Positions 17,301 through 61,705 of a stretch of DNA of 64,000 nucleotides are shown piece by piece. Position 1 is the stretch's first letter. The number at the start of each line of letters is the position of its first letter. Location of the stretch: positions 62,001-126,000 of the IMG/VR virus record IMGVR_UViG_3300047558_000137; one strand, written 5' to 3'. Position numbers and translations under genes: made by a program. The notes under the pieces were generated by a model. That model worked only from the letters and a program-made list of their open reading frames with translations. It was not told the DNA's origin and searched no databases. This stretch comes from a virus.

Positions 17301-17476
17301 TAATTGTCTCCCCATTTAACTTTTAACCATACACGATCGTGTACATAATGTATAATCATAAGACCTATATGTATACCTATCGCTGTTGATAATCCTGTCC
17401 ACACAGCGGTAAAAATTACTGCCAGTAACCGGTATGTTACAATTCTTGCTAAAGTTCTTTTATGTGTTTCTATCAT
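17300..17476 (-). CDS. DUF2061-like membrane protein
   Basis: 58 aa from the ATG at 17476, which overlaps the queE stop (ATGA). It matches the DUF2061 pattern: ETHKRTLARIVTYRLLAVIF, a second span, then IIHYVHDRVWLKVKWG. The short length fits the single-domain family. It is an inner-membrane protein of unknown role. Confidence 0.7.
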   Translation of the reverse strand: MIETHKRTLARIVTYRLLAVIFTAVWTGLSTAIGIHIGLMIIHYVHDRVWLKVKWGDN

Positions 17477-18330
17477 TTGCCCCAGCCGTTGCCCCACAAG
17501 TCAACGTGTAGACGTGGACTGTAGTTGTAACCTTTGCTTAGTGCCCAGTCTGCTACCCGAACACGGTTGGCGGCATAAGGAGTAACAACACCACCTTGTG
17601 GCATTACATAGACAGGACCATGAAACCCAACAGCACGATATTGACCAACTGCACGATCTACTTCTGCAAAGTGTTCGTCTGTTTCCACAACAAACTTCAA
17701 GTAGGTAAAGCCGTAGTCTTGGTACATACGCACAATCTCTGGACGAATTGCTTCGTCCCATGCTTCGCCACTTGCACTTAGCTTGGGACTTACTGAGAAT
17801 GTAATTTCATTGCCAGCAATATCAACCCAGTCTAAGATGTAGTCAATAAACCTACCTTGCAGAGTTTGTGTACCATTTGTTTCGAATGTGATATTACGCA
17901 AGTCCTGCATACGCTCATGTTCTAATAACTCTTGATACGCACGTTGCCAACCTAGCAATGGTTCACCACCTGTAATTACAAGATGCACATCGTTGCCATT
18001 GTCCTGCACCCAACGATGATTGGGTGTAAGAGCTAGCATTTGATCTACTAGATCTTTTGTTTCTACTGTTGGGCTTAGATCTTTAAAAGCAGGATGCCAC
18101 GATGCGTAGCTGTCGCATCCAGTATTAACTAAGGGTAGACTAGTAAAGTCTTTATACAAGTGGACATTCTTTGCCACTTCGTCGGCCTCCGTTGACGTTT
18201 CGCCTGGCTTGCAGCCAAAGCCTGCACATGTAAAATTACATCCAAATGTGCGTAAGAATACTGATGGTACGCCAACAAAACGGCCTTCACCTTGAGCGCT
18301 GTAAAAGAGTTCACTGATTTTTAATTTCAT
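17473..18330 (-). CDS. queE: 7-carboxy-7-deazaguanine synthase (QueE), radical SAM
   Basis: Converts 6-carboxytetrahydropterin to 7-carboxy-7-deazaguanine (CDG), the ring-contraction step of the 7-deazaguanine pathway. The 285 aa product begins with ISELFYSAQGEGRFVGVPSVF, typical of QueE. It has the cluster region GCNFTCAGFGC (residues 30-40) and the SAM-binding TGGEPLLGWQ. The cluster motif is C-x3-C with the third cysteine not at the usual +3 position; C40 or the cysteine in GCDSYASWHP could serve. It belongs with queD (20623), folE (23786) and dpdA (32863). Confidence 0.9.
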   Translation of the reverse strand: MKLKISELFYSAQGEGRFVGVPSVFLRTFGCNFTCAGFGCKPGETSTEADEVAKNVHLYKDFTSLPLVNTGCDSYASWHPAFKDLSPTVETKDLVDQMLALTPNHRWVQDNGNDVHLVITGGEPLLGWQRAYQELLEHERMQDLRNITFETNGTQTLQGRFIDYILDWVDIAGNEITFSVSPKLSASGEAWDEAIRPEIVRMYQDYGFTYLKFVVETDEHFAEVDRAVGQYRAVGFHGPVYVMPQGGVVTPYAANRVRVADWALSKGYNYSPRLHVDLWGNGWGK

Positions 18331-18498: not shown

Positions 18499-19213
18499 GG
18501 ACAATGTTTTTTATTAAGTCTATATTAAGTTGCCCTTGCAACCATTTTCTATAATAGTTTACAGATTCTTCTGTAGGCAATGTACCTAAATTTTTAAGAT
18601 GTGTAAAAAATTTAGTTTCGCTATATAGGTCCAATAAATTAACAACATAGTCGGCGTCTGTTGTTAACTCTGTCGGTAACCCGTCCCTAAACAAATCTAC
18701 ATTGTTACGAAAGTAATCAACAAGTTGATTAAAGTTTACTGGCAATTGAGTAGGCAAGTTAATAAATTGGGAATCAATCATTGCCCTTTGTTGTATAGAA
18801 TCCTCACCTAGGCATACTGTTGCGTTAAACCTTGCCCAGTTTTCTAGCACAATCGGATACAGTTCTTGACTATAATGTATAGCAACAGTAAAAAGTTGAT
18901 CACCAAAATGTTGTTTCATTGGTAATAACTGATTATGATATACAGTTGCTAACCATACGTGTCTTTTTTCACTTTCGAGGAAAGATTCCAACGCATGAAT
19001 ATTATTAGGCCAATTAATATTTCTCCATCTGCATCTATTAGCCTGTGTAAACATTTTTACATACGGCTCAATAGTTGAACTATTATATAAAAGAATGCCG
19101 TTATCGGTTATATCAGCAATGCATGGCCGAAGCCATGCATTATTAAATCCACCTAAACAAATAATGAATACATCGGCTACAGTAGCCTGTGGAAAAACTC
19201 CAAAATACAGCAT
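18485..19213 (-). CDS. Hypothetical protein, possibly glycosyltransferase-related
   Basis: A 242 aa protein without a clear motif. It is alpha/beta, with strands VADVFIICLGGF and HVWLATVYHNQLL that suggest a Rossmann-like fold, and a C-terminal helical part. It may be related to phage proteins of the sugar or sulfotransferase neighbourhood. Its ATG overlaps the isocitrate lyase stop by one base (TAATG), so it is co-translated with that gene. Confidence 0.55.
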   Translation of the reverse strand: MLYFGVFPQATVADVFIICLGGFNNAWLRPCIADITDNGILLYNSSTIEPYVKMFTQANRCRWRNINWPNNIHALESFLESEKRHVWLATVYHNQLLPMKQHFGDQLFTVAIHYSQELYPIVLENWARFNATVCLGEDSIQQRAMIDSQFINLPTQLPVNFNQLVDYFRNNVDLFRDGLPTELTTDADYVVNLLDLYSETKFFTHLKNLGTLPTEESVNYYRKWLQGQLNIDLIKNIVHGKK

Positions 19214-20421
19214 TAATGGAATTGATCAGCTTCGGTTGAATGTTTGTTAGCTACAGTAGAAGTTGCGCCCACTGCTTCACTAATCAAGTCAAAATAACCA
19301 ACGCCAACTTCACGTTGATGTTTGACAGTAGTGAATCCACGTTCTTGGGCCGCAAACTCACGCTGTTGCATTTCACTATATCCAGCCATACCACGTTCCT
19401 TGTATGCTTCTGCTAATTCAAATGTAGCTAAGTTAACTGAATGGAATCCTGCTAATGTAATAAATTGGAACTTGTAGCCTAGTTCACCTAGTTCACGCTG
19501 GAATGATTCACACTCGGCTTCGCTTAAAAACTTACGCCAATTAAAACTAGGACTACAGTTATAAGCAAGCATTTGATCAGGGTACTGTGCGTGTATAGCA
19601 TCGGCAAACTTTCTAGCTTGTGCAATATCAGGCGTACTAGTTTCGAACCATAAGAGATCAGCGTAAGGGGCATAAGCAAGACCTCGGCTAATACAAGCAT
19701 CAATACCATTTTTAAATTTGTAAAAGCCTTCGTCAGTGCGTTCATTGATAATAAAGTCCTTGTCCAATGGATCATGATCTGATGTGATAAGTGTTGCGGC
19801 TTCGGCATCTGTGCGAGCCATAATAACTGTGTCAACACCTGCAACGTCTGCGGCTAAACGTGCGGCATTTAGTGTGCGAATCATTTGTGATGTTGGAACA
19901 AGAACTTTGCCACCTAAGTGACCGCATTTCTTTTCACTTGCTAACTGGTCTTCAAAGTGAACACCTGCCGCACCTGCTTCAATCATATGTGTCATTAACT
20001 CGTATGCGTTTAATGCGCCACCAAAGCCTGCTTCTGCATCTGCTACGATAGGCAAGAAATAATCTGTTGTTACTTTGCCTTCACTATGTTCAATCTGGTC
20101 TGCACGACGGAATGCGTTGTTGATACCTTTAACTACACGAGGAACACTGTCAACTGGGTATAGTGATTGGTCCGGATATGTAGTGTTTTGTGTATTATTA
20201 GCAGCCGCTACTTGCCATCCGCTTAGATAGATGGCCTTTAATCCTGCTTTAGCATGTTGAACTGCCATTTGTCCATTGTATGCACCTAATGTATTAACAT
20301 AAGGCTCATTGGCCAATAATTCGCGTAGTTTGTGTGCTCCACGCTTCGCTAATGTGTGTTCTACTTGTAAACTACCTTGTAGCCTACGAACTGTTTCTTG
20401 TGTATAATTTCTTTTCTTCAT
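19213..20421 (-). CDS. aceA: Isocitrate lyase
   Basis: Cleaves isocitrate to glyoxylate and succinate, the first step of the glyoxylate shunt. The 402 aa product, from the ATG at 20421 with the Shine-Dalgarno AAGGAA, matches the family along its length. It shows the LSGWQVAAA strand, the [10 protein letters not shown] metal-binding loop (near 127-135), the catalytic KKCGHLGGK (active-site Cys166), [14 protein letters not shown] and the NCSPSFNW substrate loop. It is a little shorter than E. coli AceA (434 aa). All key residues I can check are present, so it should be active. No malate synthase is seen in the window. Confidence 0.93.
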
Positions 20422-20431
20422 ATATTTCCTT

Positions 20432-20647
20432 TTAAGTTCCACAATCCATGCGCCAAGGACACATAGATAAAGTAACAGTTGCACAATCATCCTGACCAAA
20501 ACATCGTGGTTGATTGGTTCTCTTTAATCTAATTATTGTGTGAATCTTTTTGCGTTCTTCGCTATTGCTATGCCCTGTATTAGAGAGCATGGCTTCTTCA
20601 TTGAGCAATTTTTGCAGCTCACTTAATCCAGAAGATTCTCGTTCCAT
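20432..20647 (-). CDS. Small Cys-containing phage protein
   Basis: A 71 aa protein whose C-terminus [21 protein letters not shown] has four cysteines in a pattern (C-x5-C-x7-C-x5-C) that could bind zinc or iron. The N-terminus is helical and charged. Proteins with a very similar Cys tail are common in related phages as I recall. It overlaps queD upstream by 25 bases and lies 10 bases before the isocitrate lyase start. Confidence 0.65.
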
Positions 20648-21177
20648 TCTCGGTGCCCTTCACGGTATGCCATGTTGCTTTGTGTTTCACGTACCTCAAC
20701 TCTGTAGCACCACAAACGTTCAGCTTCTCCTGGGCCCCACATCTCGGGGATGTAAACGCCATTGACATACTTGTAAAGCATATCTGAGAGTGCTTCGCAT
20801 CCTAGTGCAGGAAGTACAACAATCTTGGCCATTTTCTTTTCTTGCAACAGTTTAAATGTTTCCATTTCTGGATCATCTTGTGCAACAATTAGCGTGTGGT
20901 CAAATTGATCTTCTAGTGTCTTTTTTAGTTCTTTAAGGCCGCCGTAGTCCGCGGCCCAATTACGAACGTCTAGGTCATTGGTTCCAAAATAGAACTTCAT
21001 ACTAAACGCATAACCATGAATCAAATTGCAGTGACTATCCGCACGCCACTGACGGTATGCTACTGGAAATGCATTGTGATATTCTTTTGTACTTGTGTAC
21101 TTGTATTGTACTGGTCGGGTGTTTTGTAAGTTTTCTTCTAGATGACGAATCAAGTCGCCGGTTGATGAGTTTGCCAT
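20623..21177 (-). CDS. queD: 6-carboxy-tetrahydropterin synthase (QueD)
   Basis: Makes 6-carboxytetrahydropterin from dihydroneopterin triphosphate, the step between FolE and QueE. The 184 aa product has the T-fold hallmarks: FPVAYRQWRADSHCNLIHGYAFSMKFYF (in two parts, with the catalytic Cys and zinc-type His), the DYGGLKELKKTL element, FDHTLIV, an LGCEALSDMLY helix and the closing RVEVRETQSNMAY with the pterin-binding Glu. The HGY replaces the usual HGH, so one zinc ligand may differ. An SD (TAGGAG) precedes the ATG, and a late-like GATAAATA lies about 80 bases upstream. Confidence 0.85.
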   Translation of the reverse strand: MANSSTGDLIRHLEENLQNTRPVQYKYTSTKEYHNAFPVAYRQWRADSHCNLIHGYAFSMKFYFGTNDLDVRNWAADYGGLKELKKTLEDQFDHTLIVAQDDPEMETFKLLQEKKMAKIVVLPALGCEALSDMLYKYVNGVYIPEMWGPGEAERLWCYRVEVRETQSNMAYREGHREWNENLLD

Positions 21178-23785: not shown

Positions 23786-24529
23786 TTAACGCGGAGCGAA
23801 CTCTTGCTGTAGCTTGATGTTATCAAAGAACTCTTTTTTAGTACTTTGATCCCGTTCAAATGCGCCTTTTAGTACTGTGGTCTGTGTGAGGCTACTGTGC
23901 GCCATAATACCACGATTCTCGCAGCATCCGTGGGTAGCTTGGATATATACCGCAACATCATTCGATCCAGTGGCAAACCCGATCTCACGAGCGATGTCCA
24001 TGCAAAGTTCTTCCTGAAGTGTTCCGCGGCGAGCACACCATTGTGCGATTCTAGTATACTTACTAAGTCCGATGAGCTTTGGCCCAGCAATAATTCCAAT
24101 ATAAGCCACGCCTGACACAGGCTGATGGTGATGGCTACACATGCTCTTAAGCTCACTACGCACAACCAACATGCCTTCGTATCGTCCTTCTGTGTCATTT
24201 GGGAAAGCCGTTGCGTTAGGTGTTGGTTCGTAGCGACCAGCCATGATTTCATTGTAGTACATTTTTGCAAGGCGTCTTGCTGTACCTTTACTGTTAGGAT
24301 CATTTTCTCTATCAATCAATAATGTGTCTAGTACACGTTCAAATGCTTCTGTAGCTTCGTCGATTAGTTGATCTTTCATTTTGTCGTCGATGTATTCGCT
24401 GACATTATCTCCTGCCCAGAATCTTTTGCCATCACGTTTAAATTTAAAGCGAAGGTGATCGCATACTTTGCCTAATCCATATCCGCCGTCTCCGGCCATT
24501 GCATCTAGTGCTGTTTCTTTATCTGTCAT
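23786..24529 (-). CDS. folE: GTP cyclohydrolase I (FolE)
   Basis: Opens GTP to dihydroneopterin triphosphate, the entry step to 7-deazaguanine synthesis. The 247 aa product has the zinc and catalytic region SMCSHHHQPVSGVAYIG, the GLSKYTRIAQWCARR helix, and ATHGCCENRG, where the last cysteine binds zinc. It is slightly longer than E. coli FolE (222 aa). Its stop is 25 bases before the lipoprotein start, and its start is one base after the DegT-like gene. It pairs functionally with queD, queE and dpdA. Confidence 0.93.
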   Translation of the reverse strand: MTDKETALDAMAGDGGYGLGKVCDHLRFKFKRDGKRFWAGDNVSEYIDDKMKDQLIDEATEAFERVLDTLLIDRENDPNSKGTARRLAKMYYNEIMAGRYEPTPNATAFPNDTEGRYEGMLVVRSELKSMCSHHHQPVSGVAYIGIIAGPKLIGLSKYTRIAQWCARRGTLQEELCMDIAREIGFATGSNDVAVYIQATHGCCENRGIMAHSSLTQTTVLKGAFERDQSTKKEFFDNIKLQQEFAPR

Positions 24530-24530
24530 T

Positions 24531-25130
24531 TTAATCCTTGATAGTGATTGTTCTTAAATCTGGGTACTGTACTAATACAGGGTCAACTGGAAACTCTTTA
24601 AGTTTTTCTAGTAAAGCAAGTCCTCGATCGGCTTCTTCAATAGTAGGCTTATAGTGATATCCAACTCTAAACTCTCGTTGTTCTACCCAGGGTGATGTAT
24701 TTAGGTCGCGGCCATCATAGCGCATTAAAATTATTGCATCATATGCAGCCTTGTCGTCTAACAGTATAGCACCTCCGCGGCCGATTTGTAAAGGCTTTCC
24801 TTGTCCAAAGCTGAGACATTGCATCGTTCCTGCTCGATACATATTCTTTTCTAAACGTCTAGCACTATCCCATATTCTAGTTAATCCAAAAGGATATTCT
24901 CCAATCCATTGTTTAGGCGAATGATTTTCATACATGTACTTAATTTCTAATTTATGCATAAGCATAGGGATACTCAGATAGGTAAACGGCGTCATAATAA
25001 CTTCCTGTACCTGCTCATAACGCATACACAACTCAATTGCGTGTGTACAACAGTCAGTCATGACGGCGTAAGGAGCACCTGTATACTCTGCTAGTGCTGT
25101 TTCAAATTGTTTAATTTTATCAAATGTCAT
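24531..25130 (-). CDS. Shortened DegT-family aminotransferase-like protein
   Basis: A 199 aa relative of DegT/DnrJ aminotransferases, about half the usual length. The N-terminal PLP-binding region is there (YTGAPYAVMTDCCTHAIELC), as is the lysine loop CLSFGQGKPLQIGRGG, but the C-terminal domain is missing. There is no frameshift in sight: both ends overlap neighbours cleanly (ATGA with the radical SAM gene). It may be a minimal or inactive version working with the radical SAM protein. Confidence 0.7.
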   Translation of the reverse strand: MTFDKIKQFETALAEYTGAPYAVMTDCCTHAIELCMRYEQVQEVIMTPFTYLSIPMLMHKLEIKYMYENHSPKQWIGEYPFGLTRIWDSARRLEKNMYRAGTMQCLSFGQGKPLQIGRGGAILLDDKAAYDAIILMRYDGRDLNTSPWVEQREFRVGYHYKPTIEEADRGLALLEKLKEFPVDPVLVQYPDLRTITIKD

Positions 25131-26155
25131 AGATACATTGTCTCCATTGACTGAGGATTATCTAGAATATTTTGTATATTGATATTGTGTATGTTAGGCC
25201 TACATGGCTGGCAAAAAGCAACTCTAGTTTGATTATAAACTTCCATATGACGCTCACCCAACCATTCATCTCTAAAGTCACCCGAGTCCCACGACCCAAT
25301 TCTGAAATTAGGATTACCTTTATTTTCACAGCAGGTGTATATTCCACCATCTGCACAGAACACAGGAAAATGAAACATCTGATGACACTTCTTATAATTA
25401 CGTGTTAGATACTTGTTTAAGTTGATTTTATGTTCAACTTGATATCTCTTGCCTAGTTCATCTATCAGGGCCAGAGTCTTATTAGATATGTGGTATGCTA
25501 CATTGTTAACAATAGCCGGCCTAAAAAATACTGATCTGGCTCGTGTATCTCGGACTAACATAAAAATATCTGTTAGGGCCTGTTCGTTATCGTTGTAATC
25601 ATTAAGCAGTATTTTAAAATCAACATTTACACCAGCATCGATTAACCCACGTGCATTATTAATAACCTTGTTAAAGATACTTTTTTTAGGTATAGAACGT
25701 CGAATAGTTTCGTATAATTCTTCTGTTGCGGCATCTATATCAATACCTACCCAACCTAATTTGCGTAGCTTATCTACTGGTACTTTATTAAGTAATACAT
25801 CTAAGTTTGTGCCATTGGTTGTAATACTGGTTAGGAATCCTAGATCAATGGTATGTTCGATTACGTTTTCGTACCCTTTAAGCAAGGTGGGTTCCCCTCC
25901 GCCCGGGTAAGTGATAGTGTGTAAACTGCCATAGCTTCTGGGACTATGTGAACGCCAAGAAGCCAAACGATCTAGTAATTCTATATATTCACTGTATTGT
26001 TTTTGTACAGGCATTTCTTTTCTAAACTCTGCACTGTTACAATAGAAGCAATCTTGATTGCAGATATTAGTTAGGTCTATGTCGATTGATGCAGGCAATA
26101 TCTTCATGGTAGATGAATTGCCCATCCAGTGTACTACTTCAGCGTATTGATACAT
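25127..26155 (-). CDS. Radical SAM protein with SPASM-like C-terminus
   Basis: A 342 aa radical SAM enzyme. The cluster motif is CNQDCFYC (C-x3-C-x2-C), preceded by IDIDLTNI. The SAM-binding stretch is TYPGGGEPTLLKG. A C-terminal cysteine-rich region, with CADGGIYTCCENKGN and a closing CQPC, resembles a SPASM/Twitch auxiliary cluster domain. Such enzymes modify peptides or sugars; the target here is unknown. It is clustered with a DegT-like protein, a glycosyltransferase-like protein and GalE, so a glycan precursor is a reasonable guess. Confidence 0.8.
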   Translation of the reverse strand: MYQYAEVVHWMGNSSTMKILPASIDIDLTNICNQDCFYCNSAEFRKEMPVQKQYSEYIELLDRLASWRSHSPRSYGSLHTITYPGGGEPTLLKGYENVIEHTIDLGFLTSITTNGTNLDVLLNKVPVDKLRKLGWVGIDIDAATEELYETIRRSIPKKSIFNKVINNARGLIDAGVNVDFKILLNDYNDNEQALTDIFMLVRDTRARSVFFRPAIVNNVAYHISNKTLALIDELGKRYQVEHKINLNKYLTRNYKKCHQMFHFPVFCADGGIYTCCENKGNPNFRIGSWDSGDFRDEWLGERHMEVYNQTRVAFCQPCRPNIHNINIQNILDNPQSMETMYL

Positions 26156-27105
26156 GTTTTTATTTCTTGTTTATATGGTTGCCCGAACAGCCCTGCAAAA
26201 AAATTGTCAGCATTTCTTTGTCTACGAGCAAGGGTATGTTGATTTAATTTATACAGATCTTGGGCCATTAACGAATCTAATAATTCGTGTACCTTGTCTA
26301 TTCTACTAGACCAGTTTAATTCTGTATCATAATACTTATGATCAACAATATCGTCAAATGTGTCCACACCTAAACTACGCAAGTGATCTACAGCACCTGG
26401 TGCACCGATCATTAAAAATAATTGCCCACTGGCAACGGATTTCCATGTCTTCTCTGTAATAAAGACTTCAGGTAACACTGTTGTTTCTGTGATAAGATTT
26501 ATATAACTGTTACTATATGCAGGATTATAAATTTCATCTTCGACCCCGGGGCGAATTTTATTTCTATTAGGCAATGAATCTTTAATTGTATTCCACTCCT
26601 CGGCAACACTAGGCTCTAATTTATAATCGTCGTGTCTGCCGGGATCAAAGTCGGACCGGTGCATAGTAAACAGCATTTTGTCAAAGTAGGACTTTTTGCG
26701 TAATGCCAGATAATTATAGATTCTATTAAAACGTGGTGCGGCATTAAGGCATGACACAGGATAGAGTTTTTCTAGTGTGTTAATACGTAAACAGCGTTGA
26801 TTAAAATTATCTTTTGTCCATTCGTACCACCACGGATAAAATAATAATCTAGGTTTTCTTAAATGGTCAGCTGGATTATATGTTAAAAGAATAAAGTTTA
26901 TATTATTTTCTTCCAGTAACTGATATACGTAATCAATAGAAGTTGACCAATGCTCACTGCTTAAATCAGCAATAACCAATGGATAGTTTTTAAATTCTTC
27001 TATGTGCTCGACAATATTATAGTTGATATTATTGAGAAAATAAAAGGCATTTGTTTGGTTTCGAAGAACTATCAAGTCGCTGGTTGGGCTCTGCTGCAAT
27101 ACCAT
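26134..27105 (-). CDS. Glycosyltransferase-like protein
   Basis: A 323 aa protein whose C-terminal part (ITEKTWKSVASGQLFLMIG, then LRSLGVDTFDDIVDH) matches the GT-B-like pattern also present in the protein at 7439. The N-terminal half is alpha/beta and divergent. It probably transfers a sugar; donor and acceptor are unknown. It overlaps galE by 34 bases and the radical SAM gene by 22 bases. Confidence 0.6.
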   Translation of the reverse strand: MVLQQSPTSDLIVLRNQTNAFYFLNNINYNIVEHIEEFKNYPLVIADLSSEHWSTSIDYVYQLLEENNINFILLTYNPADHLRKPRLLFYPWWYEWTKDNFNQRCLRINTLEKLYPVSCLNAAPRFNRIYNYLALRKKSYFDKMLFTMHRSDFDPGRHDDYKLEPSVAEEWNTIKDSLPNRNKIRPGVEDEIYNPAYSNSYINLITETTVLPEVFITEKTWKSVASGQLFLMIGAPGAVDHLRSLGVDTFDDIVDHKYYDTELNWSSRIDKVHELLDSLMAQDLYKLNQHTLARRQRNADNFFAGLFGQPYKQEIKTCINTLK

Positions 27106-28079
27106 TTATATGCACTATCAATAATTTCTTCTATGCTACTGTGTTGGGGTTTCCAGCCTAGCCATGTTTCTGCATCGTCGGCATCGGCAACTAGTCGTTC
27201 TGGATCGCCAGGTCGCTTGGGACCATAGTTAACAAAAGGCAACCCGTAAGTATTAACTACATAGTCAACAATGTACTTATTACTAATTCCTTGGTTGGTC
27301 CCCAGATTAAAGATATGGCAATCTGACACACCGGTAATTGTACTGCGTTCTAGAAACTCTGCGGCACGTACATGTGCTGTAGCAATATCCCATACGTGTA
27401 CATAGTCGCGCACACACGTACCATCGCTAGTTCCATAATCATCACCATTAATGGTAAATCCACGACCTGCTAGGCTTGCTTCTAATACACGGGCAACAAT
27501 GTGCGTGGCATTAGGTTCTTGGCCTAGATCAAAGTCTTTAGGTTCAGCGCCCGCGGCATTAAAGTATCTAAAGACTACACTGTTAAGATTGTATGCTCTA
27601 GCATAGTCCCATAAGACTTCTTCGATCATGTCCTTGGACTTGCCGTAAGGACTCATTGGTCTCTTAGGGTGTCCTTCTTTTAATGGAAGGTCTTCAGGCT
27701 CAGGATCGCCATATACTGCGGCACTGCTACTAAACATAATGACAGGTTGCTTCTTAAAGTCCTTAATGTAGTTTAAGAACTTAACGGTCTTGGCTACATT
27801 GTTATCATAATAGTCAGCAGGATCTGTTACACTGGGACCAACTAGACTAGTGCCAGCACAGTGTACAATGATATCGGGCTGTAGATCGAAGATAGTTGCT
27901 AGACTTTCATCGCTTGAAAAGTCATTAACAAAGAACCCGTCTAGGCCCTTTAGTGTATGTTCACGTAGAACACGATCAATAACAAACACACGGTTGTCTG
28001 CGTTAGCATACTTAAATGCTCGTGCGACATGGCTACCAATGTAGCCACATCCACCTGTAACAATAATAGTTTTACTCAT
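27072..28079 (-). CDS. galE: UDP-glucose 4-epimerase (GalE-like)
   Basis: Interconverts UDP-glucose and UDP-galactose (or the N-acetyl forms). The 335 aa product has full-length family features: TGGCGYIGSHVARAF at the N-terminus, FSSSAAVYGDP with the catalytic serine, the SPYGKSKDM tyrosine/lysine pair, the FRYFNAAGAEP loop and GTCVRDYVHVWDIA. It is 335 aa against 338 in E. coli. It likely supplies galactose units to the glycosyltransferases around it. Confidence 0.9.
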   Translation of the reverse strand: MSKTIIVTGGCGYIGSHVARAFKYANADNRVFVIDRVLREHTLKGLDGFFVNDFSSDESLATIFDLQPDIIVHCAGTSLVGPSVTDPADYYDNNVAKTVKFLNYIKDFKKQPVIMFSSSAAVYGDPEPEDLPLKEGHPKRPMSPYGKSKDMIEEVLWDYARAYNLNSVVFRYFNAAGAEPKDFDLGQEPNATHIVARVLEASLAGRGFTINGDDYGTSDGTCVRDYVHVWDIATAHVRAAEFLERSTITGVSDCHIFNLGTNQGISNKYIVDYVVNTYGLPFVNYGPKRPGDPERLVADADDAETWLGWKPQHSSIEEIIDSAYKWYCSRAQPAT

Positions 28080-29230: not shown

Positions 29231-29415
29231 TATAAATCCTTTAATGTTTTTAGCATTATGTATTGTTCAAACACTTCTACTAACTCAGGGTCACCCCCGA
29301 GATAGTATTCTGCTGCGGCCTTCATACTAAGTGCCATTGCGGCTGCTTCGGTAATAGTGGGCCATTTTGCTTGACAGCACTCTAACCAGATTTCTTGTTT
29401 AGAATTTAGACTCAT
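29230..29415 (-). CDS. Small hypothetical protein
   Basis: 61 aa from the ATG at 29415. A longer in-frame start at 29472 would lie fully inside the glycosyltransferase gene and adds a cysteine-rich, unlikely N-terminus. It is a helical protein with an Ala/Met-rich core (AAAMALSMKAAAEYYL). It overlaps the upstream gene by 17 bases. The function is unknown. Confidence 0.55.
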   Translation of the reverse strand: MSLNSKQEIWLECCQAKWPTITEAAAMALSMKAAAEYYLGGDPELVEVFEQYIMLKTLKDL

Positions 29416-30589
29416 GTGTGTATTTGCGATAATCAGTTGACATACGCAGCCATTGCTCGCCCTTACCTTCAATTATATCACAAATACGATTTACAGTATT
29501 ATCAGTCCAGTCACTTATTTTGCCCATATTATCATGTGGCTTTTCTAGCAACTTTTCTAATTTGTTAAGTGCATCTTCTATTGACCAAGGAATGTAAAGG
29601 CGTTCAGCATCGTTCGCAAATGATTCAGGAAAACTCCGATAAGCAGGATACAGAACATTGCTTCCCAGGGTGTCAGCTTCTGAGACTGTGTTAGAGACCC
29701 AATCTTGTAAAGCACAATTAAAAAGCACACGGGTATCATTGAGTAAATTATAGTAATCATTCTTTTCTAGATCCTCGTGAATAACTAGTGTACCTTCTTC
29801 CTGCATACGGCGTGTACGTGCCATATAGCTGTCGTTGTTGTACTTGAGTTTAGCACCCGAAAAGATGCAGAACTCTACATAACGACTTGGGTGACGCTTA
29901 TTCCAAGCATCAATTAAGTCCATGTAGAAGTCTGGTTGCTTCTCCTGATCCCAACGAGCCGCAAAGCCTACACGATGCTTACGCTCATTAAATGGCTTCA
30001 ATGGTCCTGCTACACGCTCACGCACTTCCGCTTTGCCAAATGCTAGACCACTAATGTTGTAGATAGGGCAGTCCCATCCTGCAACCTTCATGTGCATGAC
30101 CATTTCTTCATTAGAAGCGAGTACTGCTCCATTCGTTTTACGAACGATTTCACAGACCATCTGTTCATAGAGCCCCATCCACTTGGACATTCCCCATACG
30201 TGAACAAAGTCGTCAGGATCAATTGACTGTGCCAAACACCGTACATAAATGCGTGGTCGCATTGCTTCAGGTACTTGATCAATGATATAAGGTAGACTTT
30301 CAATGCCCGGCTGGAACATGTCTTCAAAGTAGATAACATCTTCATTAGTGACTTCTCCTGCCTTCATCATCTTAACTAGATTCATTAGTTGACTCATACC
30401 AAAGTAACTGCGACCATGTGCATCTAGCACCTGTCCAGTTACAATAGCTTGATCATTGCCGAGTGTCTCGCCGGGTACCAACACATAGTCAATACCTCTC
30501 CGATCGAACACACGCTTATTCCATTCCTCTAGCTGTAGAGTGTAACGTGCTTTGTAGGACTCAAGTCCCATGTAGTATAGTTTTCTCAT
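29399..30589 (-). CDS. GT-B glycosyltransferase (GT4-like)
   Basis: A 396 aa glycosyltransferase with the GT-B layout: an N-terminal Rossmann part and a C-terminal half beginning HRVGFAARWDQEKQPDF, followed by a nucleotide-sugar site with the pattern CALQDWVSNTVSEADTLG, where the Glu is of the GT4 E-x7-E region. It has no transmembrane segment. It lies in the run of genes leading back to dpdA, so a DNA or tRNA base as acceptor cannot be excluded, though a glycan is more usual. Confidence 0.75.
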   Translation of the reverse strand: MRKLYYMGLESYKARYTLQLEEWNKRVFDRRGIDYVLVPGETLGNDQAIVTGQVLDAHGRSYFGMSQLMNLVKMMKAGEVTNEDVIYFEDMFQPGIESLPYIIDQVPEAMRPRIYVRCLAQSIDPDDFVHVWGMSKWMGLYEQMVCEIVRKTNGAVLASNEEMVMHMKVAGWDCPIYNISGLAFGKAEVRERVAGPLKPFNERKHRVGFAARWDQEKQPDFYMDLIDAWNKRHPSRYVEFCIFSGAKLKYNNDSYMARTRRMQEEGTLVIHEDLEKNDYYNLLNDTRVLFNCALQDWVSNTVSEADTLGSNVLYPAYRSFPESFANDAERLYIPWSIEDALNKLEKLLEKPHDNMGKISDWTDNTVNRICDIIEGKGEQWLRMSTDYRKYTHESKF

Positions 30590-30987
30590 TCGTCTTTGTA
30601 TTTCTTTAATAAAGGACTATTGATATGCTTAATAGCCTGTTCAAGATGCTTCATTTTTTGATCTTCGAGTTCCCATTTGCTTAGACTCCAGTGATTTTGG
30701 GCATCAACAGCAGTTGTGCCATAGCGTGTATTCATAGCGGAGATACTACGCATTTCACTTTCCATACGTTCTAGTCTTCGTATGATCTGATTTTGATCAT
30801 CGAGTACTTGACGCAATGGTCCAATGGTGGCACCTTTACGACCCTCAGGCTTGGTTAAAATAACCATCATCATTAGACTACGTAGTGCATTGATCACACG
30901 CTCGTCGTTGCTAGTTAATGCTTCATCAAACATGTCAATGAAACGCTCAAGATCGAAGTCTGCCTGCTCTTTTTCTCTCATTCCCAT
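30586..30987 (-). CDS. Small helical protein, possible coiled coil
   Basis: A 133 aa protein, mostly charged helix, with heptad-like spacing in residues 60-95 (QVLDDQNQIIRRLERMESEM). It has an SD-like AAGGAT before the ATG. It is coupled to the glycosyltransferase by an ATGA-type overlap. It has no known domain. Confidence 0.65.
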   Translation of the reverse strand: MGMREKEQADFDLERFIDMFDEALTSNDERVINALRSLMMMVILTKPEGRKGATIGPLRQVLDDQNQIIRRLERMESEMRSISAMNTRYGTTAVDAQNHWSLSKWELEDQKMKHLEQAIKHINSPLLKKYKDE

Positions 30988-30990
30988 TTT

Positions 30991-31650
30991 TTATCCTTTA
31001 ATGTAATAGCCTTTACCGTAGCTACGACTGTGTACGATTTTATGGCATTCTATAGGTATTCCAAACCGTCCATTGGCCAATTCACCAACGAATCTAGGAA
31101 CTCCCCCATCTGTTGTATTATATAAAATATCGTCAAACACAACAATGCCACCTGGACGAACTAAGGGTTCGTATAATAACCAATCGCATAATACAGAATG
31201 GTAACTATGATCCCCATCAATGAACAACAGGTCAACTTGATGTACAGCATCGTATATTTTTTTAACAGTTGCAGGATCTTGGCTACTACCAATGGCAAAG
31301 TGTGATCGCCCATCGTTGCCAAACGAATGCCCAAAAACCTGTTCAGTTCTTAGGCTAAATTCGTTTACTCGATTGTGATTTTGTTCAATGGTGTAGACTT
31401 GGTCTGCAATATTACGCCACATAACGTGCGTACTACCAAAATGACCTAATCCTATTTCTAATACAGTAGATAGTCTGCCGGGCATAACGTGTAGAAGATC
31501 TTGGATTTCTCTTCGGACCTGTTGCATTCCGTGAACCGGCATCACTTGTAAGTCGGGCAATGGATCGATTGCATCTTCTGCATAATACTTTCCATTACCG
31601 CACATACTAACCCAACTATCTAACTTAGCCAGGATTTCGTCTACGTTCAT
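30991..31650 (-). CDS. SAM-dependent methyltransferase (Methyltransf_24 type)
   Basis: A 219 aa class I methyltransferase. The SAM-binding glycine loop is VLEIGLGHFGSTHVMW (about residue 62), followed by TIEQN, the FIDGDHSY acid box typical of Methyltransf_24, and a late GGIVVFDDI strand. The family acts on sugars and small molecules. It is placed among a glycosyltransferase, small genes and the QueD-like/dpdA unit. Confidence 0.8.
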   Translation of the reverse strand: MNVDEILAKLDSWVSMCGNGKYYAEDAIDPLPDLQVMPVHGMQQVRREIQDLLHVMPGRLSTVLEIGLGHFGSTHVMWRNIADQVYTIEQNHNRVNEFSLRTEQVFGHSFGNDGRSHFAIGSSQDPATVKKIYDAVHQVDLLFIDGDHSYHSVLCDWLLYEPLVRPGGIVVFDDILYNTTDGGVPRFVGELANGRFGIPIECHKIVHSRSYGKGYYIKG

Positions 31651-31653
31651 TGA

Positions 31654-31926
31654 TTAACGTGCCCTAAAGTTATGGTTACCGTTTGTGTTGCGAGGACGGA
31701 ACTCAGTACGTTCACGTCGTGGGCTGCGCCACTGATCCCATGGTTCACGCCCTTTAGCGTACTTCATGTATTCTGCATAAGCAGGCTTACGCTCGTTGTA
31801 TAGGTGTGACTCGTCAAAGACGTAGCCATAGTCTACGCAAAATCTTTTAAATGACTCAAGGTCCTCGAAAATGTTGCGGACTTCAGATTTCATTGTGAAG
31901 TATTTTTGTAGATGTTCGTTAGCCAT
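31654..31926 (-). CDS. Small basic hypothetical protein
   Basis: A 90 aa protein with a helical N-terminal half. The C-terminal tail is rich in Arg, Asn and Pro (RSPRRERTEFRPRNTNGNHN) and suggests nucleic-acid binding. An SD (AAGGAA) sits before the ATG. It has no known domain. Confidence 0.65.
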   Translation of the reverse strand: MANEHLQKYFTMKSEVRNIFEDLESFKRFCVDYGYVFDESHLYNERKPAYAEYMKYAKGREPWDQWRSPRRERTEFRPRNTNGNHNFRAR

Positions 31927-31935
31927 TTTTATTCC

Positions 31936-32376
31936 TTAAACGCTAATTTGTTGTGGTCGGTGAGTTTCATATTTAATAAGTGCGCCGTTTTCACCATCTT
32001 CGGCCACTTCAATCCAGACACTACGTCCAGGATATTTTGATGCGATTTGCAAATACAAATCGTCTGCAATCATTTCGCACGACTTAAAGTCAAGGTGTAT
32101 GGTTCCATCTCTGTAGAGATTTTCCAGCCAACGCTTGAACTGAATAAATTCCACATCCCGGTCATTATGAAAAACATCGATCCAAACACGGAAGTGGAAT
32201 ATATGGCGATGAGGCACCCCAAGAAAAGATACATCATACTCATCACCGGTCGCCAAAGCAGGATCAGTTGCTGCGGCTGGATATTTGTGAATGCCTTCTT
32301 TACGGAATGTAACCCAGATTTTTCTATCTGCACGTTCTTTAATCCTATCTATAGTAGCACGTTGTTCTTGATTCAT
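31936..32376 (-). CDS. QueD-like T-fold protein linked to dpdA
   Basis: A 146 aa protein of the QueD/6-pyruvoyl-tetrahydropterin synthase fold. PHRHIFHFRVWIDV gives the His-x-His zinc pair, FIQFKRWLENLY is the V-x-F-x-x-L/K element, SCEMIADDLY the helix, and WIEVAEDGENGALIKYE the closing strand with the pterin-binding Glu. The upstream cysteine of the true QueD catalytic motif is not evident. A full QueD is already present at 20623, so this copy probably does something else, such as tailoring the 7-deazaguanine for DNA insertion. It overlaps the next gene by 4 bases. Confidence 0.7.
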   Translation of the reverse strand: MNQEQRATIDRIKERADRKIWVTFRKEGIHKYPAAATDPALATGDEYDVSFLGVPHRHIFHFRVWIDVFHNDRDVEFIQFKRWLENLYRDGTIHLDFKSCEMIADDLYLQIASKYPGRSVWIEVAEDGENGALIKYETHRPQQISV

Positions 32377-32882
32377 AATGGTGTATCCTTAGTATATTTA
32401 GACCAGTCAGTAAAGACTTTTCTATTTCTTAATTCATGTAGACTATGACACCAGACTCCTGGATTAGTTGCAGCAAAGTCTTTGTCGTCTAGCTTAATTG
32501 TAGCATTGTAGCCTAGCATTTGTATATAGGGTAATTTTACCGAAATCATCGGAATAAAATTATTGTATTCGCAAAGAGCTCCTTCTACTAGACCTTCAGC
32601 CGATTGTACATCAATATCTAATGTACATAGATATCCTTGTTTTAGATAATGTGTAATCATATCTTCCCAGGCCTTCCATGTATCAGCATCATTAATTGCT
32701 GGATTAGGAAAGCTCATGTTAGCGCCAAAGTAAATGTGCTGACCCGGCTTCTTTAATCGAGCAGTAATATCTGCTGTTGATTGTACGCCAACAACAAACA
32801 AGGTATCCATGCCATATGCAGGGGTGTGTTCTACTTCAACACCGTAAAAGAAATTTACATCTTCATGCCCGGGTCTGTCCAT
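32373..32882 (-). CDS. Conserved protein fused in operon with dpdA
   Basis: A 169 aa protein without a named domain that I can assign. The patterns FFYGVEVEHTPAYGMDTLFVVG and HIYFGANMSFPNP are strong strands with conserved-looking acidic and aromatic residues, and a C-terminal GVWCHSLHEL. I believe it travels with dpdA in other phages, but I could not check that. It overlaps dpdA by 20 bases and the QueD-like gene by 4, so the three are one translational unit. Confidence 0.65.
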   Translation of the reverse strand: MDRPGHEDVNFFYGVEVEHTPAYGMDTLFVVGVQSTADITARLKKPGQHIYFGANMSFPNPAINDADTWKAWEDMITHYLKQGYLCTLDIDVQSAEGLVEGALCEYNNFIPMISVKLPYIQMLGYNATIKLDDKDFAATNPGVWCHSLHELRNRKVFTDWSKYTKDTPL

Positions 32883-34404
32883 CTTCCAATTCCTCTAGTT
32901 TATGTTCGTCAAGTTCTACTTCGGGGTCTTCGTCTACAAACTCAACAAGTCTGTTAAACACAGTATTTGAGTTCATAGTCTTTTTACCTTTAAATCCACG
33001 AGTACCTACAATTTCCATCCAGTAGTCACTATATGAATTAATTATAGCAATGCTTTCTTCTTTAGTCTTTGCTGCAAATATACGTTCTACAATATCTTCA
33101 AAGTAAGAATAGTCGCCAGTACTGTAACGCATCATAGCAGGATGTTCTCCGGCATCGAATCGACGATTGGCTTCTTGTACCGCTGTTAAATGTTGATAGA
33201 CATTATGACCCATTAGCAATGCATATGAGAAACTGTCCCAACTAGTCTTGCCTTCTTTGCCAATCTTATTTAGATCTCCTGGCTTGTAGATACAGATATC
33301 TTTCATAGTTAGCAAGTCACTAATGGGACTATTTTGCCAACGATCGTAGATGCCGTCCTGTACTACGCCGGTGGCCCAAGGTCTGGTGTCTGTGGCGTAT
33401 TTTTTGTCGTCTGCGCTTGGGGCCATTCTGTAGCTCCATTTTGAGTCGTGTTCGAAGACGTTTTCGAAATAGACTTGGCCATTCGCCGTCGCAAGGAATG
33501 GACTAGCGCAATCAAAACTAATAGTAAAAGCAGGGTTGACATATTTTCTTACAGCTCTCTGAATAACGGTGAGCAATACTGCCCACTCTAATTTACTTGT
33601 GCCCAAGAAGTGCATCCAATCATGCCGGCCTTCTTGTAACAAGTTATCGTAACGTAGTTCAGTTAGGCGTTTAAGCACCAAATGAACATCACACATGTTC
33701 TGTCCTCCCATTGCCCATCCATCAAAGTGTGTATCTGGATAAACATCAGGATCACAAAATTCTTTCATAGTCTGGTACCATTCTTCGGCACTGGTATGAT
33801 TATCACCTTGTAACACATTTAAGAAACGTGCGCCACCATTCTTAACACCCTTACGATGCTGCATGAAATAGTTATTATTAAACTTAGTTGCGTCTACTGC
33901 TTCTTGCAGTGTAGTAATCTGACAGGCTGCACTTGCTTTCTTATCATGTATAACCCAAGTAGGAATATCAAGAATCATGCCATAATCGGCAATATTGTCT
34001 AGCCAGTTTAATATGAGCTCGCGTTTTTTCTGCGCCTTAGGACAACCCGAATTGGCTTTCCAATCCCCTTCCCACAGCCCTTTAGCAATCTGGAAACCAC
34101 CCGAGTCGCCAAGAATAAAAGATCCAGCTTCCCTATTTCGAACCATATCCTCTGACCAATCTTGTTTATTAAGGTCAAGGTTCGCATGTCCTCCACTATA
34201 CAAACTCCATTTATACGGAAATAAACCCTTAGTTGAGTTGAGCCAATTAAGCTGCTCCATATCAGTAAGACCCTGAGGAAATCTTGCGGGATCAACATAC
34301 TGTTCATTACGTTGTTTGCCTATAAATGTAGCATAGAAGCCGGAAATAGCAGGGAGAAAAACTGCATAGTCTAATTGTTTACTTGTTAAATCATCTTGCG
34401 CCAT
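32863..34404 (-). CDS. dpdA: DpdA-like DNA 7-deazaguanine transglycosylase
   Basis: Swaps guanine in DNA for a 7-deazaguanine base, by analogy with tRNA-guanine transglycosylases. The 513 aa product carries the TGT signature FILGDSGGFQIAKG (first catalytic-type Asp at 100) and a second acidic element, TISFDCASPFLA, at the nucleophile position. DGWAMGGQN, a GG-substrate loop, lies between. I do not see the C-x-C-x2-C zinc motif of tRNA enzymes, which fits DNA-type members. With folE, queD and queE it completes a phage DNA modification route. No canonical QueC is seen in the window. Confidence 0.85.
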   Translation of the reverse strand: MAQDDLTSKQLDYAVFLPAISGFYATFIGKQRNEQYVDPARFPQGLTDMEQLNWLNSTKGLFPYKWSLYSGGHANLDLNKQDWSEDMVRNREAGSFILGDSGGFQIAKGLWEGDWKANSGCPKAQKKRELILNWLDNIADYGMILDIPTWVIHDKKASAACQITTLQEAVDATKFNNNYFMQHRKGVKNGGARFLNVLQGDNHTSAEEWYQTMKEFCDPDVYPDTHFDGWAMGGQNMCDVHLVLKRLTELRYDNLLQEGRHDWMHFLGTSKLEWAVLLTVIQRAVRKYVNPAFTISFDCASPFLATANGQVYFENVFEHDSKWSYRMAPSADDKKYATDTRPWATGVVQDGIYDRWQNSPISDLLTMKDICIYKPGDLNKIGKEGKTSWDSFSYALLMGHNVYQHLTAVQEANRRFDAGEHPAMMRYSTGDYSYFEDIVERIFAAKTKEESIAIINSYSDYWMEIVGTRGFKGKKTMNSNTVFNRLVEFVDEDPEVELDEHKLEELEDGQTRA

Positions 34405-35023
34405 AAAATTGTACTTGTTCTATTAATCTATAATCTTCTTCAAAATAGTCTTGTATACGTTGAAGGTATTTAGGTTCGTCCTGCATAGCTTCATTAAAAA
34501 GCATCTTAAATTGCCTACGCTCGGGACTATTTTTGCTTACGTGCTGATAATCATATCTATCATATTTGTTATCACCGCAGTGCGTTTTTATAAAATCACT
34601 AAAGTTCTTTCTATAATTGTCATCGCACATCATAAACGTGCAATTGTCTGTATTTAGACCTACTAGAAATTTTATTTGTTTTTCTGTATGATCGTCAAAT
34701 GTAACACGATCGAAAACTAAATCAAAAACGCTTTGAGTAAAATGTCCTGCACTTATATGCGGGTGGTATAATGTAAAATATTCAGCTATGCCACTTAGCC
34801 AACGATCAACAGGATCACGTAGTACAACTAGGGCATCTTTGTCTAACATGTCTGTGCGATAGTTGTAGAACTCCCACCCCCAGTCTTTGAGGTTGGGTTT
34901 AGTCCAACTACTGGCATTCTTGGGAATGTATACGTACATTAGGTTAACACCTGCCTTACTCATACATTCACCATAGACATGGCCCTTATGTTGCCATTCC
35001 GTGATACCTGATTTAATTATCAC
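34391..35023 (-). CDS. Sulfotransferase-like protein
   Basis: A 210 aa protein of the Sulfotransfer family (P-loop-like PAPS binding). YVYIPKNASSWTK is the 5'-phosphosulfate loop, and VVLRDPVDRWLSGIAEY the 3'-phosphate loop, in the correct order and spacing (about residues 30 and 66). It is shorter than carbohydrate sulfotransferases of cells. The acceptor is unknown. It overlaps dpdA by 14 bases and the clamp gene by 4. Confidence 0.8.
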   Translation of the reverse strand: MIIKSGITEWQHKGHVYGECMSKAGVNLMYVYIPKNASSWTKPNLKDWGWEFYNYRTDMLDKDALVVLRDPVDRWLSGIAEYFTLYHPHISAGHFTQSVFDLVFDRVTFDDHTEKQIKFLVGLNTDNCTFMMCDDNYRKNFSDFIKTHCGDNKYDRYDYQHVSKNSPERRQFKMLFNEAMQDEPKYLQRIQDYFEEDYRLIEQVQFYGAR

Positions 35024-59508: not shown

Positions 59509-60768
59509 TTAAATAGCGTGTGTTGCTATTTTCTTTAATTTTCTGTTCTGTATAGCCATAATTTCCATGTTAGAACGTTCTAAGTATCCTCTATTTACAA
59601 ATTTAGGAGATACAGGATTATACGTGCTGTCTCCTATGTAATATAGTTGACTTAAATTTGGTTTAAACCCCACGGGGCTGTTTAATTCATATTGGAAATA
59701 CTTTGGATCGATTTTATCTACTAGAAATTTTAGCCCTGCACGCCATGCATGATCGTACTCGGTCCCTGCTAAATTAGTATGAAACCAGTGATCCATTTCA
59801 TTGTAGAAACTAGTTGTTGGCTTTGATGTTTGCCATGTTTCTAAATCATAATCTGGGTATATTATTGATTTAGCGATATATTCGTATGCTGTGCGCTGGT
59901 TTGTATTACCATTGGGTGTCTGCACCAAATGCCTGACATGTCCGTTCTGGGACATATCAAACCACATCTTAATCATGTGTGCTTGCTTACACACTATTTC
60001 TGGCAAATCTGGAGTCCAATAAAATAACTCTGTGGTTATATTGGTATTATCTCCAACTACAGGATTGGGATGATTTGCCTGTAGGTCACTATAATAGACA
60101 TACCATTTGTTTTCTATAATACAGACTTTGGGTTTATCAATACCATATAACGCACAGATCTTCTTTCCAGAATCAGCTAGGGTTTGATGTGCAGTAGTTC
60201 CAAAGTTAGTGTGCTTAATTCCATGACCGGGTTGAAACCAGTCCCGAGTAGTGTAGACCCACGACTCATCTCTCATATATGAATCGTTTAGAAGATTTTC
60301 ACTGTAGTCTTGAACTGTAACTACTGTATCGGGAAAGTTTGTCTTGATCCAGTGCAGTAGTGGTTCAGCGGCAAATTTCTTCTCACTTAGTGTATTTTCT
60401 GCGTTAGTGTTCCATGGATCGTCTGTTACATCCTTGTCTACTTGTGCGGGATATCTAAATACAACTTCGTCTAAGTGAATTCCGTTTAGTAAGAAAGCAA
60501 AAATAGCAGTAGTACTGTCTCCACCGCCACTAGCTTCAACTCTAATCCAATCATACTGATCTCGTAACTGCTGTGCCCTGATTCGATACAACTCTCGTAT
60601 ACTGACTTCGGGTTCTTGTGTCCAATTAAATTTAGCCAAGTCGATTGTATTAAAGTGCCACCCAGGTGTTACGCCTAATTCTGTGGCACGTATGTAAGCC
60701 TGAGGCTTTGAATAGAAAACCTCAGTGCCTACTGTGTAATAACCTAATTTAGGATTACGTTCAATCAT
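59509..60768 (-). CDS. PP-loop ATP pyrophosphatase-like protein (copy B)
   Basis: A 419 aa protein with a PP-loop (ASGGGDS, residues 79-85) in the segment RIRAQQLRDQYDWIRVEASG, followed by a helix and an LNGIHLDEVVFRYP strand. This is the ATP-adenylating motif of the QueC/TilS/asparagine-synthetase superfamily. It is much longer than QueC (about 230 aa) and I see no QueC zinc cysteines. It is paralogous to the protein at 62851. It probably activates a carboxylate or carbonyl with ATP, substrate unknown. It is coupled to the Bug-like gene by ATGA. Confidence 0.75.
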   Translation of the reverse strand: MIERNPKLGYYTVGTEVFYSKPQAYIRATELGVTPGWHFNTIDLAKFNWTQEPEVSIRELYRIRAQQLRDQYDWIRVEASGGGDSTTAIFAFLLNGIHLDEVVFRYPAQVDKDVTDDPWNTNAENTLSEKKFAAEPLLHWIKTNFPDTVVTVQDYSENLLNDSYMRDESWVYTTRDWFQPGHGIKHTNFGTTAHQTLADSGKKICALYGIDKPKVCIIENKWYVYYSDLQANHPNPVVGDNTNITTELFYWTPDLPEIVCKQAHMIKMWFDMSQNGHVRHLVQTPNGNTNQRTAYEYIAKSIIYPDYDLETWQTSKPTTSFYNEMDHWFHTNLAGTEYDHAWRAGLKFLVDKIDPKYFQYELNSPVGFKPNLSQLYYIGDSTYNPVSPKFVNRGYLERSNMEIMAIQNRKLKKIATHAI

Positions 60769-61685
60769 TTTGATTGATCGATTTTAACACCAACTGTTAA
60801 GTTAGTCCAATATTTAGATTGCTCATCCCACCATTTTACTAAATCCTTTTCTGGGATTTGGTAAGGTTGGCAATAGTCAAGTGCATAAGAATCTCTAACA
60901 GATTTTTTACCTTCTACTTTAAGTAGAATATCTCTGATTTCTTTTGCTTTGTCTTCTGGGAATGTTTTTGGTACCATTAGGTTATAAGGAGTATTCATCT
61001 TGCCCATTGCTGTAGGAAAGCCTTGGCTTACTAATGTTGCGTACTTTCCTACAGGTTTAGTGCCGGTGATCCCTAGAATATTCAGCTTAGGCTTACCTGG
61101 TTCAGCAACAACATATTTTTCTGCATCACCAATAAATCCCACTGCTAGATCAACTTGGCCGCCGAGAGCAGCAATAAATGCATCTATTGTAGATTTAAAC
61201 GGAATAATGGTTGCATTTGGGTATGCTCGAACTACCTCAATGGCCATCAGATGACTAACTACACCAAGTCCACTAGTCGCAATGGTAATAGGTTGATCCT
61301 TTGGAACTTCCTTCCATGATGAGTACTTAGAACTTGCTACAGAAAATGGAACACTACATTGTGTGATTAATGTACGGAAATCGTTTGGATCGTAGCTTTC
61401 TTTAGGATAGAAAGCAGGACGCACCCAGAATACACCCGACGTCATAAAAATACTGCCGGGCGTATTTTTAACATAGTTACCTGCAATAGCATTGCCGGCC
61501 CCGGGCTTTGCATCAAAGATAAAGTTATACTTGTCTTGAATTTTATTTGCTTCTTCAGCCAGGTTACGACTGTAGTTTGCACTGTTATCTGCGGCGCTGA
61601 AGCCATAGATGATTTGAATAGTTTCTTTTGCAGATGCAGATAATGCTACTGCCGCAAAAACCAACGCGGTTAAAAGTTTTTTCAT
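60765..61685 (-). CDS. Bug/TctC family periplasmic solute-binding protein
   Basis: About 306 aa from the ATG at 61685, with the SD TTGGAG. It has a signal peptide, MKKLLTALVFAAVALSASA, cut before KETI. The mature protein has the Bug/TctC pattern: IIYGFSAADNSANY at the ligand-binding loop, a FDAKPGAGNAIAGNYV motif (the PGAG typical of the family), ATSGLGVVSHLMAIE and a late DYCQPYQIP. The family binds carboxylates for tripartite tricarboxylate transporters in the periplasm. It would feed a host TctAB-type transporter. A sigma70 promoter lies just upstream. Confidence 0.82.
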   Translation of the reverse strand: MKKLLTALVFAAVALSASAKETIQIIYGFSAADNSANYSRNLAEEANKIQDKYNFIFDAKPGAGNAIAGNYVKNTPGSIFMTSGVFWVRPAFYPKESYDPNDFRTLITQCSVPFSVASSKYSSWKEVPKDQPITIATSGLGVVSHLMAIEVVRAYPNATIIPFKSTIDAFIAALGGQVDLAVGFIGDAEKYVVAEPGKPKLNILGITGTKPVGKYATLVSQGFPTAMGKMNTPYNLMVPKTFPEDKAKEIRDILLKVEGKKSVRDSYALDYCQPYQIPEKDLVKWWDEQSKYWTNLTVGVKIDQSK

Positions 61686-61705
61686 GTTTATTTTCTCCAA
61701 TAAAA

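Follow-up and report, generated by a model that had tools for sequence, protein, structure and literature searches.

A QueD-like zinc-site protein and a glycosyltransferase encoded with DpdA in a giant phage: a possible QueC-independent route to a sugar-bearing 7-deazaguanine in DNA

What becomes of 7-carboxy-7-deazaguanine (CDG) in a phage that encodes the enzymes for its synthesis and a DpdA-like protein, and in which no QueC is found? The question is raised by a giant phage, IMG/VR virus record IMGVR_UViG_3300047558_000137 (374,314 bp), of which positions 62001–126000 were analyzed (64,000 nucleotides, hereafter the window, whose numbering is used below). The formation of CDG by FolE, QueD, and QueE is an established pathway (PMC6884629), and Enterobacteria phage 9g and Vibrio phage nt-1 likewise combine phage-encoded FolE, QueD, and QueE with a TGT-like DpdA (PMC6884629). 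Unlike in those systems, neither QueC nor an amidotransferase is found here, while an extra QueD-like protein and a GT-B/GT4-like glycosyltransferase (GT) are encoded in the dpdA unit.

Genes of the dpdA unit and its surroundings

The three genes for CDG synthesis are on the minus strand. FolE (GTP cyclohydrolase I, 247 aa, 23786–24529) matches PF01227 (3.9e-38), and QueE (CDG synthase, 285 aa, 17473–18330) matches TIGR03365 with 1.2e-12, which is under the NCBI equivalog cut-off. The canonical phage-type QueD (CPH4 synthase, 184 aa, 20623–21177) matches PF01242 (1.2e-14) and harbors the catalytic Cys and FDHT motifs in the alignment. These matches bear out the preliminary description, in which folE, queD, queE, and dpdA were recorded as present and QueC as unseen.

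The dpdA unit, also on the minus strand, comprises the DpdA-like protein (513 aa, long type, 32863–34404), a 169-aa accessory protein (32373–32882), and the QueD-like protein (146 aa, 31936–32376). The first two ORFs overlap by 20 bp and the last two by 4 bp, so the overlapping arrangement first proposed for this unit is confirmed. The unit was, however, drawn too short, in that the GT (396 aa, 29399–30589) was overlooked. This gene is the final one of a tight run that begins with an ORF at 34391–35023 and has gaps of at most 9 bp throughout. The QueD-like gene is separated from the GT by three minus-strand ORFs with intergenic gaps of 3–9 bp, which encode a 90-aa protein (31654–31926), a class-I methyltransferase-like protein (219 aa, 30991–31650; PF13578, 6e-13), and a 133-aa protein (30586–30987). 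Their occurrence is variable, with the 90-aa cluster present in 30 loci and the 133-aa cluster in 11, and their membership in the unit is uncertain.

The 169-aa protein, included in the unit as first drawn, is conserved in the phage's own group but is optional. It is found in 15 of the 24 records that carry the QueD-like family (the phage's own record, 12 contigs, PA5oct, and ACP17), and only in these among the 34 records surveyed below. Its AlphaFold2 model has a pLDDT of 88, and a comparison with the PDB gave no match with E ≤ 0.001.

Several other genes surround the unit. An isocitrate lyase family protein (19213–20499, minus strand; PF00463, 9.6e-103) is encoded between QueE and QueD. Near FolE is a radical SAM protein (25127–26155, minus strand), for which NCBIfam gives viperin as the top-scoring family, at 1.5e-15 and under the cut-off; it adjoins a DegT-type aminotransferase. 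The latter (24531–25130) and an NAD-dependent epimerase-like protein recognized by sequence inspection (27072–28079) are sugar genes close to the unit.

The QueD-like family and the near exclusion of QueC

The QueD-like protein belongs to phrog_17812 (2.6e-36), a PHROGs family with no function assigned there, and is recognized neither by Pfam, including PF01242, nor by NCBIfam. The genes of this family are real, as relatives are encoded in no fewer than 599 stretches of viral contigs. An AlphaFold2 model (pLDDT 86) has E. coli QueD as its best Foldseek match in the PDB (E 7e-5, target TM 0.72), and ranks 1–20 for this predicted model are all QueD/PTPS proteins, in keeping with a T-fold. When the family profile is compared with that of phage QueD, the match is limited to the C-terminal 47 columns (83%, E 9e-6). 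In Chryseobacterium phage MA9V-3 (7428–8312) and Vibrio phage Bakedbeans (7200–8381), the QueD-like domain is located at the C-terminal end of a longer protein.

In canonical QueD, the zinc histidines, the catalytic Cys, the Asp-His pair, and a substrate-anchoring Glu have established roles. An alignment of 21 divergent QueD-like members contains 15 invariant columns, among them the zinc triad, H70, R73, E76, C100, E101, and E126. The triad, H30, H56, and H58, aligns with the zinc histidines of E. coli QueD, and E126 aligns with its substrate-anchoring Glu. In contrast, the position of the E. coli catalytic Cys is an invariant Leu52, and the Asp-His pair falls on gaps. Thus, the QueD-like protein shares the fold, the zinc triad, and the Glu of canonical QueD/6-PTPS (PF01242) but has lost the Cys and Asp-His residues, which precludes normal QueD function. 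It is best described as a QueD-fold zinc-site protein with a different chemistry, for which C100 is a candidate new catalytic residue.

As canonical QueD is kept alongside it, the QueD-like protein is no substitute for QueD; canonical QueD is above cut-off in 33 of 34 records and sub-threshold in the remaining one, Vibrio phage D479. In phage-type QueDs, HGH is replaced by HGY and the first zinc histidine is missing, whether or not a QueD-like partner is encoded. Complementation of this site by the QueD-like protein was considered and rejected, since the same HGY is found in QueC phages that do not encode the partner.

A search with the QueC profile (PF06508), which detected QueC in 12 of 14 control genomes, gave no match anywhere in the 374,314-bp record, so the search of the rest of the genome called for by the preliminary description has been run and has found no QueC. 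The absence is strong and not absolute, as the record may be incomplete. The survey was then widened to the phage's own record and 33 others, of which 24 have the QueD-like family (the own record and 23 fetched through the family) and 10 do not. Full-length QueC was detected by profile search in none of the 24. In contrast, all ten records that have canonical QueD but not the QueD-like protein give a QueC match, which is near full length in nine and partial in Moby. Nine of these controls were chosen from the list of QueD matches and one from the DpdA matches, and the QueC annotation of some was known beforehand. Hence, QueC and the QueD-like family are in near mutual exclusion over 34 records; no P value is given for this because the records are related by descent. 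QueF follows a similar division, being above cut-off in none of the 24 QueD-like records compared with five of the ten controls.

The residual QueC signals in the QueD-like group are partial or weak, consisting of one in D479 and three N-terminal PP-loop stretches. The D479 signal covers model positions 133–201 and more likely belongs to an NAD-pathway PP-loop enzyme, as it adjoins a nicotinamide phosphoribosyltransferase. The window itself encodes two PP-loop-like paralogues that are 53% identical (59509–60768 and 62851–63984, both minus strand), with the motifs SGGGDS and SGGSDS, respectively. They were considered as a hidden QueC, a reading that gains no support, as they match neither PF06508 nor any other Pfam family. 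The pair flanks periplasmic-binding-like proteins (TctC, 60765–61700; NMT1/phosphonate-binding, 61868–62851), forming an odd cassette.

With QueC absent, CDG would not be converted to preQ0 and would be available to the QueD-like protein. It is therefore probable that this phage forms a CDG-derived base independently of QueC. The earlier proposal of such a base, tailored by the QueD-like protein, has good but not conclusive support in the whole-record absence of QueC and the near exclusion. Of the reactions that could be proposed for a CDG-tailoring enzyme, decarboxylation is the most likely; it is the simplest, and it fits genomes with and without the GT alike. A role as CDG decarboxylase is rated as somewhat better than an even prospect.

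The QueD-like protein is perhaps the one named DpdL. Cui et al. 2023 reportedly found dDG and predicted that DpdL decarboxylates CDG; no link to a GT is known from that work. If so, the QueD-like protein would act in the same QueC-less pathway. The family occurs with FolE, QueD, QueE, and DpdA and without full-length QueC, as is expected of DpdL, and the family found in the window is present in Cellulophaga phages phiST, phi13:1, and phi19:2. The profile libraries searched contain no model named DpdL.

DpdA types and the linked glycosyltransferase

The 513-aa protein is a predicted DpdA-like DNA guanine transglycosylase, in which the motif D100-S-G-G-F-Q and D298 are invariant in the alignment and provide candidate catalytic aspartates. 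By hhalign, its profile is related to DpdA2 (93.7%, E 2e-7) and to DpdA3-like proteins (61%, E 8e-5), with no relationship detected to DpdA1 (0.7%) or to the GT used as a negative control (0.2%). Unlike the DpdA2 of nt-1, it is of the long type and is only a remote relative of that enzyme. No match to the Pfam TGT family (PF01702) is found in the record at E ≤ 1, and PDB sequence searches with the DpdA profiles found nothing. A PF01702 match does not define phage DpdAs, as the DpdA2 of phage X1 is likewise unmatched.

The QueD-like family pairs with the long DpdA type, DpdA2, short DpdA3-like enzymes, and DpdA1-type enzymes. By tblastn, the DpdAs of X1, ACP17, and BUCT-ZZ01 belong to the DpdA2 family of nt-1 and KVP40. 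The short DpdA3-like proteins resemble the annotated DpdA of Flavobacterium phage immuto, and the DpdA1-type enzymes accompany the QueD-like protein in one Flavobacterium contig and in prophage-like contigs of actinobacteria.

The GT of the window scores 17.2 bits against Pfam GT group 1, for which the cut-off is 25. Its homologues in X1 and BUCT-ZZ01 are above the cut-offs of Glycos_transf_1/Glyco_trans_1_4 (45.5 against 26.4 and 28.3 against 27, respectively). A C-terminal motif is visible in the GT alignment as D-x7-E in the subfamily of the window and as E-x7-E in subfamily B. The two subfamilies are ~22% identical and share the same locus, with 2–3 switches between them on the DpdA tree.

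The survey of genes around dpdA in phages that had been suggested for this locus shows that, the DpdA3-type phages apart, no gene partners the QueD-like protein more consistently than the GT. The GT is present in 18 of 18 QueD-like records with the long DpdA or DpdA2 and in one of the ten QueC records (PhiXhv-16). When viral loci are retrieved through the GT, QueD-like and DpdA genes are found in 61 of the 61 that extend at least 6 kb upstream; these contigs are mostly related jumbo phages, so the counts are not independent. Four QueD-like contigs have no GT, and in each the contig end is near the gene. Homologues in the phage collection are found in the same phages (PA5oct, ACP17, X1, BUCT-ZZ01, and Phosso) and in a distant group.

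The arrangement varies among lineages. The GT overlaps DpdA by 1 bp in PA5oct, precedes DpdA2 in X1, and directly follows the QueD-like gene in BUCT-ZZ01 and Phosso, while in ACP17 a single run reads QueD-FolE-169aa-DpdA2-GT-QueD-like-QueE. In the Flavobacterium contig, it abuts the QueD-like gene, with the DpdA1-type enzyme adjoining. Bacterial assemblies also encode the GT/QueD-like pair, often with an overlap of a few bases, next to a DpdA; such contigs come from Magnetospirillum, Aurantimonas, Methylobacterium, a deltaproteobacterium, a verrucomicrobium, and Flavobacterium. Altogether, six lineages, as well as bacterial contigs, combine the GT with the QueD-like protein and DpdA, of which three types are represented.

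A number of the bacterial loci probably represent mobile islands, or contigs of viral origin included in MAGs. The Magnetospirillum contigs contain an island with the GT, the QueD-like protein, DpdA, and QueD, preceded in one of them by a gene for a CoiA-nuclease-domain protein, with a phage integrase also close by; this is possibly a bacterial modification or restriction island. In PhiXhv-16, a GT relative, a PIG-L-type deacetylase, and a QueC-containing gene that carries the annotation glutamine amidotransferase lie side by side (PV764603.1, 106855–110089), in a cluster that may make a glucosamine-bearing deazaguanine. A PIG-L deacetylase was rejected as a general partner, as it is present in only two of the 24 QueD-like records and 14–16 kb distant there.

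A proposed pathway and its alternatives

In the proposed pathway, FolE, QueD, and QueE would make CDG, and the QueD-like zinc-site protein would alter the group at C7, the most likely reaction being a decarboxylation, which would give 7-deazaguanine. DpdA would then exchange guanine in the phage DNA for the resulting base, to which the GT of the unit would add a sugar. The repeated occurrence of this GT with three DpdA types and the QueD-like protein, almost always in the absence of QueC, predicts a sugar-coated guanine analogue. For the phage of the window, the chances of the full sequence of events, from a QueC-independent 7-deazaguanine inserted by DpdA to its glycosylation, are judged to be evenly balanced. 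Addition of the sugar by the GT, taken separately, is given slightly poorer prospects. A generalization is put forward tentatively, in which a sugar-bearing 7-deazaguanine built without QueC replaces guanine wherever phages, or certain bacterial islands, combine the GT with DpdA and the QueD-like protein. The weak point is the acceptor atom. As 7-deazaguanine has no hydroxyl group for O-glycosylation, C7, N2, or another group must be the point of attachment; a different product of the QueD-like protein is the alternative to a C7 or N2 link.

The scheme resembles the glucosylated hydroxymethylcytosine of T4, in which an unusual base is installed and then capped with a sugar against host nucleases. 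The difference from T4 is that the unusual base would be an analogue of a purine and that transglycosylation would place it in DNA already replicated. To our knowledge, sugars in DNA are known only on pyrimidines such as hydroxymethylcytosine, and we know of no earlier glycosylated deazaguanine in DNA; the literature searched contains no description of a sugar-coated deazaguanine DNA base. If correct, the pathway would add a new class to the hypermodified purines, would be the first case known to us of a deazaguanine glycosylated in DNA, and would bear on restriction, on sequencing, and on the use of phages. The literature searched contained no nucleoside measurements for these phages and no paper naming PA5oct together with queuosine. 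The cultured isolates PA5oct, Paride, ACP17, and BUCT-ZZ01 make the DNA chemistry directly testable. PA5oct has a pulsed-field size of 375 kb (PMC3936114) compared with a 287 kb sequence; this difference was set aside as evidence because terminal redundancy explains it equally well.

The best surviving alternative, though an unlikely one, accepts the QueD-like protein as CDG decarboxylase and places plain 7-deazaguanine in the DNA, with the GT a mere neighbor that acts on a host surface glycan or another base. The QueD-like family does function without the GT in six isolates, since none of the six QueD-like records with a DpdA3-like enzyme encodes one. Other sugar genes, the epimerase-like and DegT family ones, are close by, and Cui et al. 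2023 reportedly found dDG and predicted DpdL to be a CDG decarboxylase. Against this alternative, the GT directly borders DpdA or the QueD-like gene in numerous lineages, which differ in their surrounding genes and together have three types of DpdA, and a distant paralogue has taken its place at the same position. A role for the GT in the modification would instead mean that one CDG-diverting protein serves two outcomes, in the DpdA3-type phages without the GT and with other DpdA types together with it.

It is improbable that DpdA inserts preQ0, supplied by host QueC or by import, while the QueD-like protein does something else. The YhhQ family is a queuosine-precursor transporter family, and the record encodes a YhhQ/Vut_1 family protein outside the window (record positions 206451–206891, plus strand; PF02592, 1.9e-24), so import of preQ0 is possible. 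A YhhQ-like gene is also present in six other QueD-like viral loci, and host participation has been discussed (PMC6884629). Nevertheless, PF02592 has no match in the 23 other QueD-like records, and full-length QueC is missing from all records of this group although they retain canonical QueD.

Poorer still are the prospects of CDG itself as the inserted base, with the QueD-like protein a non-catalytic carrier or assembly partner of QueD or DpdA. The loss of the known QueD catalytic residues from a protein whose gene overlaps the DpdA unit would fit such a role, and CDG was already suggested in 2019 for the QueC-less phage Bipper (PMC6884629). In contrast, the residues invariant in the 21 members point to an active site, and the family is found with several DpdA types.

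Finally, the genes could scarcely serve tRNA queuosine or another small molecule instead of DNA, for although FolE, QueD, and QueE without QueC could support other deazapurines and two Streptomyces loci encode a QueD-like member beside QueD with no DpdA-family match in the DNA searched, the phage record has no QueF or Pfam TGT match and the DpdA-like gene adjoins the QueD-like gene in phages. One of the Streptomyces loci also encodes FolE, and in one the QueD-like gene follows an amidohydrolase-like ORF; these loci perhaps represent a deazapurine natural-product pathway.
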